The position numbers and the translations under genes are program-made. DNA of 34,863 nucleotides from an uncultured Pseudomonadota bacterium (lineage in GTDB: Bacteria > Bdellovibrionota_B > Oligoflexia > Oligoflexales > CAIMVM01), in NCBI GenBank assembly GCA_903844895.1, contig CAIMVM010000216.1, positions 1 to 34,863 on the forward strand, written 5' to 3'. The notes under the pieces are model-generated. The model did no database searches. It saw only the letters and a program-made list of their open reading frames with translations, and had not been told where the DNA came from. Below are positions 2,587 to 25,168 of the stretch, piece after piece (the stretch's first letter is position 1; each line of letters opens with the position of its first letter).

Positions 2587-3072
2587 CTATACGGGAGTCT
2601 TTTTAGGGCGCGGCTTGTTGGCTGGTGCTGCCTTCTTTGTCGGGGCCTTTTTCGCCGGAGCTTTAGCAGACGTCTTAACTCGTGATGCACCTGTCGTAGA
2701 AGTACGCGACGGCTTTTTACCAGTTACTTTAGCTTTTGCGCTTTGGGCTGCTTGCACAATATCTTTTTCAATCTTATCTACATCAATCCCAACTCTCTGT
2801 GCGTTGTCTCTCAATTCTTTTACAAACTTGTGAATACTAGGTTCAATTTTCTTGTATTCAGTAATTGCCAATTTTTCTAATTTTTTTGCTTTCTTTTCAA
2901 TTTCCTTTGCTTTTTTATCAAGACCACTTTCCCCAGCATATTTTTTGACCTTCGCAGAGATCACTTTTGCTTCTTTTTGGACCATAGTTTGTAGGTTAGC
3001 TAGATCAGCCTGAACCACTTCAGTAATCTTCTTCGCTAAGTCTGCTTGAAATTTTGCAAATGTATTCTTCAT
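2587..3072 (-). CDS. lysine/alanine-rich protein with histone H1-like tail
   Basis: The start is set at the ATG at 3072 because a strong GGAGG lies just before it. A longer frame from 3144 would lack this. The product is 161 residues. Residues 1-100 are highly helical and charged, with repeated K/E/A stretches (AKKITEVVQ, KKAKEIEKKAKKLEK), giving a phasin-like or coiled-coil character. Residues 125-161 form a low-complexity basic tail built from KAPAKKAPTKKAAPA-type repeats, like the C-terminal tails of bacterial histone H1-like proteins. No signal peptide is present, so it should be cytoplasmic. It could bind DNA through the tail, or be a granule-associated phasin, since its upstream neighbours handle hydroxybutyryl-CoA-type intermediates. 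The choice between these is open. Confidence 0.75.
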   Translation of the reverse strand: MKNTFAKFQADLAKKITEVVQADLANLQTMVQKEAKVISAKVKKYAGESGLDKKAKEIEKKAKKLEKLAITEYKKIEPSIHKFVKELRDNAQRVGIDVDKIEKDIVQAAQSAKAKVTGKKPSRTSTTGASRVKTSAKAPAKKAPTKKAAPANKPRPKKTPV

Positions 3073-3174
3073 AAATCCTCCAAATAGATGGCAATGCTGA
3101 CGGCCATTGACACTAGTGTACACTATTTCCCAAATACCCGCCACACTGTCGAAAATTAATTTGTCATGTACTAT

Positions 3175-19814: not shown

Positions 19815-20304
19815 AACACCATCCGAGTCTCAAGTTGAAATGACCGAATTGGTTTTACCTCAACACACGAATGCCCTAGGAACTATTTTTGGTGGTGTAG
19901 TTCTATCTTGGGTAGATATAGCTGCTGCCATCTGCGCTCAAAGGCATTCAGGGCGCTTAGTCGTTACGGCCGCAATTGACGCCATGCAATTTGTCGCACC
20001 AATTCGCTTGGGTTGGATTGTAAGTATAAAGGCTTCGATTAATTTTGCTTCCGTTACTAGTTGTGAAGTAGGAGTGCGAATTACTGCAGAAAATCCCCTC
20101 ACACATGAACTCAACCATACAGCAACGGCCTATGTTACTATGGTGGCTCTAGATAGCAATGGCCGTCCTGCGGATATTCCCCAGGTAAAGCCCGTAACCG
20201 AAGTGGAACATAGGAGATTCAATGAAGCGCAGCAACGACGAAAACAAAGATTAGAGCTCAAGGAAAAGATATCCGAATCTCGAAGGCTCAAAGGAGACTT
20301 TTGA
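19792..20304 (+). CDS. hotdog-fold acyl-CoA thioesterase (YciA/BACH-like)
   Basis: This enzyme probably hydrolyses acyl-CoA to free acid and CoA. The single hotdog domain has the YciA/acyl-CoA hydrolase pattern: TELVLPQHTNALGTIFGG, then VVLSWVDIAAAI with the conserved acidic residue, and a later FVAPIRLGWIVSIKA strand pair. The C-terminal 35 residues are a charged helix (HRRFNEAQQRRKQRLELKEK). The first ATG (19840) would cut off PSESQVE, which precedes MTELVLP in relatives I recall. A strong AAAGGAG lies six bases before a CTG at 19792, so I infer a CTG start and 170 residues (154 from the ATG). The gene overlaps the diguanylate cyclase at its start and touches the DUF4105 gene at its end, which places it inside a tightly packed operon. 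Confidence 0.85.
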   Translation: MNRSSTSKTPSESQVEMTELVLPQHTNALGTIFGGVVLSWVDIAAAICAQRHSGRLVVTAAIDAMQFVAPIRLGWIVSIKASINFASVTSCEVGVRITAENPLTHELNHTATAYVTMVALDSNGRPADIPQVKPVTEVEHRRFNEAQQRRKQRLELKEKISESRRLKGDF

Positions 20305-21545
20305 TGTTGAGGCTCCTGCTTCTGTTGTTTTCCTTCTTTTATATAAACACCACCTCTCTAGCGCGACCCATTCCCGTGCCAAATCACATCCCAACTGATG
20401 TCGCTGTATCGGATATTGACGTAGAGCTTTATACAGTAGGCCTAGGACCCGCTCTTTACATGCGCTATGGTCATACTTTGCTAGGTTTTCATGTGAAATC
20501 AACGGGGGCGCGACTTATTTACAATTGGGGTATGTTCGATTTTCAAGACCCTCTTTTTCCTATACATTTCTATCTTGGGAAAAGAACGTATTGGGTGGGA
20601 CAATCAAGCCTAGAAGGAGTTGTGCGACTTTACAAAGACTATGAAGACAGAAATGTTTGGCGAGACATCATAAACTTAACTGAGAAACAAAAAACTGAGC
20701 TCATTCGGCTGGTAAATGAAAAGCTTTCGGCAGAAAATATGTTTTTTGGCTATGAGCACTTCGAAAGAAATTGCGCCACCATTCCCAGAGACTTGATAAA
20801 TGATAGTCTAGGACAAATTCTTTCTAAGAACTTAAAGGCCGAACCTGCAGATCATGATTTTAGATGGTATGTAAGAACTCACTTAGGAATTGTTCCCTCT
20901 CTAGGCTGGATTTTAGACATTGCAATGAACAACAAGCTTGATGTCCCTCAATCTAAATGGGAAGAATCTTTTTATCCTATAAAACTTAGAGAGTATGCCG
21001 CTTCACTTCCGGCTTACAACGATGACGGAACTCCCAATCATGGTCAAAGTCTTCTTCAATTCGACAAACAATTGGTGAAGGCTTCCAGTGACTGGTTCCA
21101 ACCCGATCCAAATTTCTATATATATGTGACAGGTTTTCTTTTCGCAGTGACAGTAATTATACTATTTTTTCCCATCCCCGTCCTAACCGGATTAAGCTCA
21201 GTTTTCCTTGGAGGAGTCTTTGGCATAATCGGTTTTTCCATGATTGTAAGTTGGGTCTTTTCTACTCACTTTGATATGCATCATAATATCAATATGCTTC
21301 TTTTTTTTCCCGTCGACTTAATTTTAATCTTTTTGCCAAAATGGAAACAAAAACCATGGTTCAGGAATTATGTGATTTGCCATTGGATTCTCTTGGGAGT
21401 TCATATAAGTGTCTCCCTCTTAGGAATTTCCAATCAAAATGCACTTAGAGTGATTCCTGTCGGTATTGCATATTCCATTTGGATGAGCGTCGCTTCCGGA
21501 TGGCTTATCTTCAAGGGAAAAAGCTTTCACCTAAGAATCCCTTGA
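20304..21545 (+). CDS. DUF4105 (Lnb N-terminal periplasmic domain) membrane protein
   Basis: The start is the ATG at 20304, which overlaps the thioesterase stop (TGATG) and has AAGGAG seven bases upstream. The product is 413 residues. A signal peptide (about 1-21, ending SLA-RP) is followed by a periplasmic DUF4105 domain. Its family motifs are MRYGHTLLGF, YNWGMFDFQDP, the LTEKQKTELIRLV helix and FERNCATIPRDLIND, where the Asn-Cys-Ala-Thr stretch is the most conserved point. The C-terminal 150 residues hold about five membrane segments (roughly 270-290, 293-315, 324-341, 352-374 and 384-402). The biochemical role of the domain in this architecture is not established. It ends the pilD-GGDEF-thioesterase operon, so an envelope role is likely. 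Confidence 0.85.
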   Translation: MLRLLLLLFSFFYINTTSLARPIPVPNHIPTDVAVSDIDVELYTVGLGPALYMRYGHTLLGFHVKSTGARLIYNWGMFDFQDPLFPIHFYLGKRTYWVGQSSLEGVVRLYKDYEDRNVWRDIINLTEKQKTELIRLVNEKLSAENMFFGYEHFERNCATIPRDLINDSLGQILSKNLKAEPADHDFRWYVRTHLGIVPSLGWILDIAMNNKLDVPQSKWEESFYPIKLREYAASLPAYNDDGTPNHGQSLLQFDKQLVKASSDWFQPDPNFYIYVTGFLFAVTVIILFFPIPVLTGLSSVFLGGVFGIIGFSMIVSWVFSTHFDMHHNINMLLFFPVDLILIFLPKWKQKPWFRNYVICHWILLGVHISVSLLGISNQNALRVIPVGIAYSIWMSVASGWLIFKGKSFHLRIP

Positions 21546-22618: not shown

Positions 22619-22996
22619 CTTTGTGATCCTTTCTTAATGCAAATCTTCAGCCGGCTGTTTTTAGAAAAAGGGGAGTATTTATGAAGCCCTGATTTTTTGT
22701 CTATTCCCAAAAAAATATAAAAAAAAGTGGCTTTTCATTCCCTTAGCAAAAAACAAATTAATTCTGGAAGACGCTTCATTGGCAATTTAGGACTTGGAAT
22801 ACAAGGCCTGCTCGATGCTGCCTCTTAGGGATATGACATAAGGTGAATATTACGGGCTTTTTTAGGCAAATTTGGCTTTTTTGCTGGTAAGCGCCCTTAA
22901 AATCCTAAAAATTTATACGCTACACCCAATAACTGGGGCTTCGTTGTACAATAGAGTAAGAATTCTTTATTTGCCGAAAACGGAAAGAGGTTGACC
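22619..22996. other. AT-rich gap upstream of the coiled-coil gene
   Basis: About 375 bases with no supported gene. The sequence has many A and T runs. It presumably contains the promoter of the coiled-coil gene, but I see no convincing -35/-10 pair. TTGTAC near 22,944 with TTTATT 16 bases later is only a weak candidate. Confidence 0.4.
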
Positions 22997-25168
22997 GTGA
23001 TCGTAACAGCTATTCATTGGCATCGAACAACAGGACTTGCACCAGAATCATTTAGGTTTGCAGGTGGTCGGGGCAACCTGAGACGCACCTGGATTACCTC
23101 AAGTGAACAAAAGACACAACAAGAATGGTTTGTCAAAGCTTTGGCTTGCGCTCTGACTGATCAGCCTATGGCTGGGCTCATGAAGGTGACCGTAGAGCTT
23201 TCAGATGATGCAGGTTCGAGTTATAAGATCACTAGAAATACTGACCGCGTTAACTGCGAGAAAGATGGCCGCTCCATTGCACGAGAAACGCTTCTCGCTG
23301 AGCTTCGCGATGGCTTAGACGTCATCAATAGCTCCCATACAGAATTTCATGAACTGTTTCAAAGCTTTCGGGTTAGCTACGAAAACGATGCCTATCTAGC
23401 TAGGCGAGAGCACCGAGACACCCTGGCAACAAAAGATGTTCGCGAAGTAACCCTCGAGATCAGACGGCTTAGCCAAAAACTTAACCAGTCGCTTGGGACC
23501 AAGTGGACCCCTTCAAACATAGCTATTCTTGACCGACGACTTAATGACCTGAGCCCCCGAATTTGGGAGGTACGCTCCCAAATAGCCAAGGTCGAGAGCA
23601 TGGAAGAAAACAAATTTCAGGACAGAAGTCAGGAAGTAGGGCTTTTAAAGGAAATGCAGTCCCTTCTCAATGAACTTGAGGGCAGCGGGCTTCCTGTTTC
23701 CGAAATCCATGCCCGTCGCAAGAACCTCGAAGATCAAATCTCAGACATGCGCGTTGATTCGGAATGGGTTGCAACTGCTCAGCGAGATATAAACTGGAAA
23801 TCTGGCTTTACGTTACTTGGCAGAATTCAAGTGGCAAGAAGAGTCGTAAAGATTTTAACTGACAAAAAAATGGAGTTATCAAACCATTTACAAGGTTCGT
23901 TCGAACCCTTGAATGATCAATGGACTCAATTTAAAGAGCTAGATTATGAGCTCATTAAAAGTCTTCAAAAATCACTCACGCTCATGCTGACGGGAACCTC
24001 AGTTTCCCTTAGGATAGAAGATAGAAAAAAATCATTAACTTGGTTCGACCGATTTAAGGTTCAAGATGCGATAAAGCCGCCCGAGTTGGCTTTTGAACTC
24101 CCTGAGGCAGGATTGTCTGAATTAGCTGAGCAGACCCAAAGTTTAATGAAATGCCTTGATTCCATACGAGACCGGCACGATGACAGGCTTAAAAAAATTC
24201 TGGCTTTTAGCGAGACACTAGACACCTTATATGAAGCCTATGTTCTCCGTTTGGACCAGCTCAAAGGCGAGTGGCAAGTATACGCCAAGGGAGCGGGCAT
24301 CCCAGAAAGCTTGACCCTAGAATCGTTTCCTAAGGCCATGGAAACTTTCTATAGTTTGAAAACCCTATCCTTCGAAGTCGAATCGCTAGAACGAGTAATG
24401 TCGGTTAAAAAGAAGGCTGCTTCTAGGTTGGTAGAAGTGATACATGAATGGAGAAAACTCACCCAGAGTCAAAAACAAACGGTCCCCCACAATGTACCCA
24501 TGATGATTGCCGAAGCCCAGGGATATATGAGGTACCTAGCTAAATTCGAAAAAGAAGATTTAGAGACGCAAGATCGCAAGACCCAGAATCTTAATAATGA
24601 AATACTACTTTCTAGGCTAAAAGAGAGGCTTAGAGAATTGGACTTGGATTGGAACGAGTCCTTTACCAAACTAGGGCTGGATGTTGTAAAGGTCGAAGAT
24701 GTCAGCGCTCATTTGGATCTTACAAGTGTCATTCATTATCTCACCAAAAAATATGATCAAATGCAAAAGGAAGCAGCACTATCGCCTCTTGGATTCTATG
24801 GTGCCTTCTTTAATGTTTGGCACTTGGAGGATTCCGAGCAAGAAACAAATACACTGAGCGAACTTACCAAAAATCCCTCTCCCCACGTATGTCATTTAAT
24901 TGTTGTAAATTCAGAACAGCGTGCACTAGAACTCTATGCCCTGGGAGCGGGACGAATTTTAGAAATCCCGCCAGTAGATCAAATTTCGCCTTCTCAGGCT
25001 GAGCGCAGCCCTACGCTCAAACCCATGGTAGAAAGAGCGACCATAGGCAAACCCAGCCCAAACTCAAATTCCAAAAAAGAGCCTCTAGGAACGGCAAACC
25101 AAGGAAAGATGCCTCCAACGGAACAACTTCTAAAGACGTTAGAGATGCTGCAAGGCAAACGCCGTTAA
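22997..25168 (+). CDS. long coiled-coil protein resembling an SMC/SbcC/YhaN ATPase with a decayed P-loop
   Basis: No known family fits fully. The start is GTG at 22997, six bases after AGAGG; a TTG at 22991 abuts that site. The product is 723 residues. The first 150 are laid out like the N-lobe of SbcC/YhaN-type ATPases: an initial strand VTAIHWHR, a second strand FRFAGGRG, and a third leading into TWITSSEQKTQQEWFVKALACAL. There the P-loop (GxNExGKST) would be, but its glycines are missing. The strand pair KVTVELSDD...SYKITRNTDRVNCEKDG follows. Residues about 150-610 are charged helices with heptads and few prolines. The C-terminal part has a strand VCHLIVVNSEQ where an H-loop strand would lie, but no Walker B or signature motif. 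The last 65 residues are a low-complexity basic tail. It stands alone between terminators. The SMC-like reading is inference. Confidence 0.7.
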   Translation: MIVTAIHWHRTTGLAPESFRFAGGRGNLRRTWITSSEQKTQQEWFVKALACALTDQPMAGLMKVTVELSDDAGSSYKITRNTDRVNCEKDGRSIARETLLAELRDGLDVINSSHTEFHELFQSFRVSYENDAYLARREHRDTLATKDVREVTLEIRRLSQKLNQSLGTKWTPSNIAILDRRLNDLSPRIWEVRSQIAKVESMEENKFQDRSQEVGLLKEMQSLLNELEGSGLPVSEIHARRKNLEDQISDMRVDSEWVATAQRDINWKSGFTLLGRIQVARRVVKILTDKKMELSNHLQGSFEPLNDQWTQFKELDYELIKSLQKSLTLMLTGTSVSLRIEDRKKSLTWFDRFKVQDAIKPPELAFELPEAGLSELAEQTQSLMKCLDSIRDRHDDRLKKILAFSETLDTLYEAYVLRLDQLKGEWQVYAKGAGIPESLTLESFPKAMETFYSLKTLSFEVESLERVMSVKKKAASRLVEVIHEWRKLTQSQKQTVPHNVPMMIAEAQGYMRYLAKFEKEDLETQDRKTQNLNNEILLSRLKERLRELDLDWNESFTKLGLDVVKVEDVSAHLDLTSVIHYLTKKYDQMQKEAALSPLGFYGAFFNVWHLEDSEQETNTLSELTKNPSPHVCHLIVVNSEQRALELYALGAGRILEIPPVDQISPSQAERSPTLKPMVERATIGKPSPNSNSKKEPLGTANQGKMPPTEQLLKTLEMLQGKRR

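Follow-up and report, generated by a model that had tools for sequence, protein, structure and literature searches.

The window (the whole 34,863-nucleotide stretch of DNA analyzed here) carries at 22997-25168 an open reading frame that is a real gene, and we refer to its product as pseudo-SMC. Its orthologues share the aligned start position, where most have GTG or TTG, and a purine-rich sequence resembling a ribosome-binding site precedes it. The gene stands alone in the window: the nearest 5′ gene, by its sequence a peptidyl-prolyl isomerase, stops about 460 bp short of it, and the 3′ gene is convergent. Further from it, 20301-21545 (+) encodes an Lnb-type protein with an Lnb N-terminal periplasmic domain (PF13387) and an Lnb transmembrane domain (PF25221), and 2587-3144 (-) encodes a small, helical protein whose C-terminal tail is K/A/P-rich and histone-H1-like, a layout that by eye only is PhaF/AlgP phasin-like. 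The features of the pseudo-SMC gene and protein are as follows:

22984..22990, + strand: Shine-Dalgarno-like AAAGAGG, 6 nt 5′ of the GTG start; orthologues are purine-rich at the same place
22997..25168, + strand: pseudo-SMC coding sequence, 723 aa, GTG start at 22997, TAA stop ending at 25168
22997..23407, + strand: N-lobe, putative degenerate ABC head, residues 1-137 (AlphaFold2 models, hhalign to SMC/YhaN N-lobes, Foldseek)
23102..23128, + strand: lost P-loop position, S36-W44, SEQKTQQEW against GDNEAGKST (profile alignment; P-loop in 0/24 orthologues)
23204..23236, + strand: motif D-x-x-G-x-x-W/Y-x-I-x-R, residues 70-80, in line with the G-x-x-x-x-I-x-R hairpin found in SMC/YhaN heads
23417..24775, + strand: predicted antiparallel coiled-coil region, residues 141-593 (AlphaFold2 secondary structure)
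23999..24094, + strand: rod apex, residues 335-366, low confidence (pLDDT <50), no hinge domain modelled
24449..24538, + strand: best-conserved block of the family, residues 485-514, W[RW]xxTGSQKxxDLSxPxILxxEAxxxLRYR, with W485, S491, and E506 invariant
24806..24967, + strand: putative C-lobe remnant, residues 604-657 (AlphaFold2; hhalign to Walker B/H-loop regions)
24980..25117, + strand: disordered P/S/K/Q-rich linker, residues 662-707, pLDDT about 33-46, length differing among orthologues
25118..25165, + strand: conserved C-terminal tip, residues 708-723, consensus LSxRAxxALexLxxKR, candidate partner-binding peptide

AlphaFold2 (AF2) run on the family alignment gave a full-length model with a pTM of 0.39, in which the N-lobe strands mostly have a pLDDT of 75-90, helices occupy residues 141-593, and a strand-helix-strand-helix-strand arrangement follows at 605-657. 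The N-lobe is modelled as strands at 2-10, 17-22, and 31-35, a helix at 39-53, and strands at 61-69, 75-81, and 85-89, and the C-lobe as a strand in the Walker B position (605-610), a helix (616-625), a strand in the H-loop position (632-637), a second helix (640-649), and a last strand (652-657). The protein has an ABC head split into N- and C-terminal lobes, and the models place between them a long antiparallel coiled coil, as is characteristic of the SMC/Rad50 class. The original prediction, made from the sequence, had described about 450 residues of charged helix, which correspond to the coiled coil at 141-593, and an H-loop-like strand, which is real (632-637); the strand in the Walker B position had gone unreported. 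It had also described a basic, low-complexity tail, and residues 662-723 are indeed P/S/K/Q-rich but only mildly basic (11 K/R, 5 E, and no D).

Conservation across the family is concentrated in a few places. The D-x-x-G-x-x-W/Y-x-I-x-R motif is kept in 24/24 members when a tolerant pattern is used, and the block at 485-514, which sits in the descending arm of the coiled coil, matches to our knowledge no known motif. The C-terminal tip is present in 23/23 complete orthologues, the 24th being cut off by a contig end, and a conserved tip at the end of a disordered linker whose length varies is the pattern of a docking peptide, for which it is a candidate. A CxxC zinc hook was found in 0 of the 24 members.

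The window protein has no P-loop, no LSGG signature, and no Walker B motif, so that the SbcC/YhaN-like layout lacking them that had been proposed is borne out, and the check proposed with it, whether the P-loop is lost in all orthologues, came out positive for the 24 that were aligned. No residue is common to the family at the P-loop position, no member has LSGG, and none has hhhhDE on the Walker B strand; a chance hhhhDE string occurs in three orthologues, off that strand. The idea that E, K, and T of the P-loop survive did not hold up, as placing SEQKTQQEW in register with GDNEAGKST leaves E37, K39, and T40 off the functional positions and the orthologues do not conserve them. The TGSQK-like residues at 489-493 were considered as a signature motif and rejected, lying about 115 residues ahead of the Walker B strand with no signature helix after them. 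In genomes without a family match, no diverged orthologue with an intact P-loop was found at the syntenic place. Since the P-loop is absent from every aligned orthologue, its loss is probably ancestral, and the loss of P-loop, Walker B, and signature most likely traces to the common ancestor of the family. Judging from the missing motifs, pseudo-SMC very probably works without using ATP.

The ancestry of the head was examined with sequence profiles, against a reference profile of 34 N-lobes taken in other genomes from live SMC, SbcC, and YhaN-like proteins. HHalign matched the family N-lobe to SMC/YhaN/SbcC N-lobes with probabilities of 83-89% and scores of 36.7-40.2 (the best, 40.2, at 88.7%), and the alignment is co-linear from residue 1, running past the P-loop position as far as the G-x-x-x-x-I-x-R hairpin. 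As controls, nine unrelated families scored 10-19.3, ABC transporters and MutS scored 11.8, and 299 of 300 column shuffles scored 16.3 or less; the remaining shuffle, with an hhalign score of 131.9 over 14 columns, is implausible and was treated as a numerical artefact. The C-lobe (about 100 residues before the linker) aligned by hhalign to Walker B/H-loop regions with a probability of 20% and a score of 23.4, where the best unrelated family reached 19.2 and 12 shuffles at most 14.9, and taken alone its homology appears weak. Each lobe aligns with its own SMC-class counterpart and not with the other lobe, and the order is correct.

The predicted structure gave a second route to the same class. 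When the full model was searched against the PDB with Foldseek, places 1-26 were taken by Rad50, JetC, MukB, Lamassu, SMC, condensin, cohesin, and Smc5/6, with one docked model (9a6c) as the exception and axonemal coiled coils ranking below; full-length TM-scores were mostly 0.13-0.19, the flexible rod dominating. Because the coil can drive SMC-class matches, we modelled the N-lobe without it (pTM 0.68). The first 33 PDB matches of this model were all RecF/Rad50/cohesin heads, the best with E 0.011 and a probability of 1.00, and the first protein of another kind appeared at E 0.94. No match passed E 0.001 and TM-scores among the top matches were 0.34-0.47, modest values of the kind that one half of a diverged head should give. 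Lobe profiles and AlphaFold/Foldseek, as two independent routes, support a predicted SMC/Rad50/RecF ancestry, and with it the SMC-like origin first suggested: the predicted structure has an ABC-like head with its best Foldseek matches in the Rad50/SMC/RecF class, and the window protein has no significant profile match to an unrelated coiled-coil family, so that neither of the two outcomes named beforehand as speaking against it came about. It could be argued that pseudo-SMC is an unrelated coiled-coil protein with ends that merely look like an ABC head, given that coiled coils attract false matches, that HMMER matched the window protein to no SMC-class Pfam family, and that a broad family alignment (A1) had none among PDB sequences. 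However, the coil-free N-lobe found SMC/Rad50/RecF heads only in its first 33 Foldseek matches, and the profile match is lobe-specific, in the right order, and far above controls; we regard this explanation as highly improbable and already largely refuted.

Pseudo-SMC is single-copy and was found in 34 of 43 Oligoflexales genomes. A profile of 24 sequences matched in 34 of the 58 genomes of the phylum, with 0/15 in the rest of the class, and among about 340 genomes outside Oligoflexales the sole match was weak and local (G074, 27 bits, profile positions 330-446 only) and was taken as coiled-coil noise; it was also the one addition when the search was widened to 383 relatives, drawn mostly from other parts of the domain. 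With one sequence as the query, 29 of the 96 genomes of relatives had matches, of which those in G055 and G067 turned out to be unrelated. In the GTDB contig collection, a single-sequence search found no match and alignment A1 was too diverged as a query, but a narrower alignment gave matches. No family in Pfam, NCBIfam, or PHROG describes the window protein, HMMER searches including PDB sequences gave weak coiled-coil noise only, and the YhaN-like PF13514 does not match the window protein above the Pfam gathering cut-off and is absent from the families listed for the 24 members. PADLOC gave weak matches of two members to LmuB (best E 0.0012) and of two to JetC (best E 0.0023). Three very diverged orthologues (G025, G029, and G040, at L206, L205, and L207) were recognized mainly through locus and profile, and in G040 the gene is seemingly split into two frames.

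The window protein shares 15-20% identity with the other members, whereas pyrD and the HD-domain protein of the same genome are 54% and 52% identical to the copies of a relative, suggesting fast sequence drift of pseudo-SMC. Nevertheless, dN/dS is 0.07-0.13 in the four close pairs with estimable dS, indicating that the protein is maintained by purifying selection. A head fold retained under such selection would also be seen if a nucleotide or other ligand were bound at a non-canonical site and the protein cycled like a live SMC, but the family shares no residue in the P-loop region and Walker B and signature are gone too, making this very unlikely.

The gene is divergent from pyrD in 26 of the 34 genomes, accompanied by an HD-domain gene unless the contig or slice ends, and three further genomes have the HD gene without pyrD; a histidine kinase and a response regulator often lie between pseudo-SMC and pyrD-HD. 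On the other side, a K-rich histone-H1-like ORF follows 3′ on the same strand in 23/34 genomes, in most of them directly adjoining, and an H+-pyrophosphatase gene is often next. Two of the 11 genomes without the K-rich ORF are cut by contig ends, and no such ORF was found elsewhere in the neighbourhood stretches examined. The window's genome does not have this conserved locus: its pyrD-HD pair is on another contig, and a lone K-rich histone-H1-like ORF with KKAATKKVAKKATK repeats is on a third, away from pseudo-SMC (L210:4618-4923, G000:C163). In G021 (L232, G021:C63), pyrD and the H+-pyrophosphatase gene both occur but do not enclose a pseudo-SMC gene, which looks cleanly lost, and the intervening stretch reads as the antisense of a K-rich ORF; the remaining genomes without a match have other genes at the syntenic place. 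The kleisin, kite, and nuclease partners of Wadjet/MukBEF/Lamassu are not among the recurrent neighbours (pyrD, HD, histidine kinase, response regulator, K-rich ORF, and H+-pyrophosphatase). Since pseudo-SMC and the K-rich ORF are separated by anything between tens of bases and, in one family, about 1.5 kb, and gene order may reflect ancestry more than function, we weighed the neighbourhood lightly.

We propose that pseudo-SMC is related to the SMC/Rad50/RecF branch among the ABC ATPases but is catalytically dead, and that it acts as an ATP-independent SMC-like scaffold, a reading to which we assign a probability of about 0.72. The two halves of the head, at the ends of the chain, would be brought together by the antiparallel coiled coil of about 450 residues, forming a head-plus-rod whose canonical site would neither bind nor hydrolyze ATP. 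The head would be retained as a binding platform, the rod would provide reach, and the flexible linker would carry the conserved C-terminal peptide to dock a partner. Taken as a separate point, an action as scaffold or tether independent of ATP is probable. A role in nucleoid or DNA organization is a more tentative suggestion, as only SMC ancestry and the frequent H1-like neighbour point there, and it seems rather unlikely that pseudo-SMC is specifically an ATP-free SMC serving as a constitutive chromosome scaffold together with the H1-like K-rich protein of the adjoining gene, as architecture and not motor.

The same neighbourhood could be read as that of a positioning or cytoskeletal coiled-coil factor, or of a tether for granules such as polyphosphate, and not of a chromosome protein. 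Arcadin-4, an SMC-related archaeal protein, has been reported with the cytoskeleton (PMC9389158), the H1-like AlgP is a DNA-binding protein that spaces polyphosphate granules (PMC9239181), and in many genomes the K-rich ORF lies between pseudo-SMC and the H+-pyrophosphatase gene. Set against this, the association is one of neighbourhood only, and pyrD and HD at the locus have no obvious relation to it; we find it unlikely. A similarly low probability goes to pseudo-SMC being the dead half of a heterodimer, as in the pairing of AddB with AddA, its head joining a live SMC-class head (SMC, RecN, or JetC/MukB-like) and regulating or anchoring that partner. SMC-class heads are established to act as dimers, and the genome offers a live SMC of 1204 aa (G000:C207), a RecN-like protein of 598 aa (G000:C25), and an open frame of 1505 aa that carries a P-loop (G000:C130), but no live SMC-class gene adjoins pseudo-SMC in the neighbourhoods examined and a composite ATP site would lose both halves that pseudo-SMC contributes. 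The analysis turned up no partner, and the partnership with a live SMC or SbcC protein that had first been suggested drew no support from it.

As a proposed ATP-independent scaffold, pseudo-SMC can be compared with several known systems. It resembles Rad50/SbcC and YhaN (AAA_23, PF13476; AAA_27, PF13514) in having its head split to the termini around an antiparallel coiled coil, in the order of strands and helices in the N-lobe, in the G-x-x-x-x-I-x-R hairpin, and in the strand-helix-strand order of the Walker-B/H-loop region. Unlike them, it has no P-loop, Walker B, signature, or CxxC zinc hook, and unlike Rad50/SbcC it was not seen beside an SbcD-like nuclease gene in the neighbourhoods examined. 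SMC, MukB, JetC, and LmuB are matched in fold by the full-length model in the PDB, but pseudo-SMC has shorter arms, no modelled hinge, no kleisin/kite operon seen, and no ATP motifs. With the N-lobe by itself, Foldseek ranked RecF first (5zwu); unlike pseudo-SMC, RecF is a live ATPase and has no long coiled coil. The archaeal SMC-related coalescin and Sph (PMC9389158) are likewise lineage-restricted and have a coiled coil with terminal head lobes; the archaeal families keep Walker A and B, and the survey that described them discarded candidates without these motifs (PMC9389158), whereas the loss of Walker motifs runs through the whole pseudo-SMC family. A literature text search of limited coverage found no inactive SMC-class families, a weak indication that this one is novel. 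What defines SMC-class proteins is an ATP-driven head cycle, and a family-wide ATP-dead member under purifying selection would naturally uncouple what the fold does as architecture from what it does as a motor, a case that is directly testable as the family can be recognized by its head-lobe profile.
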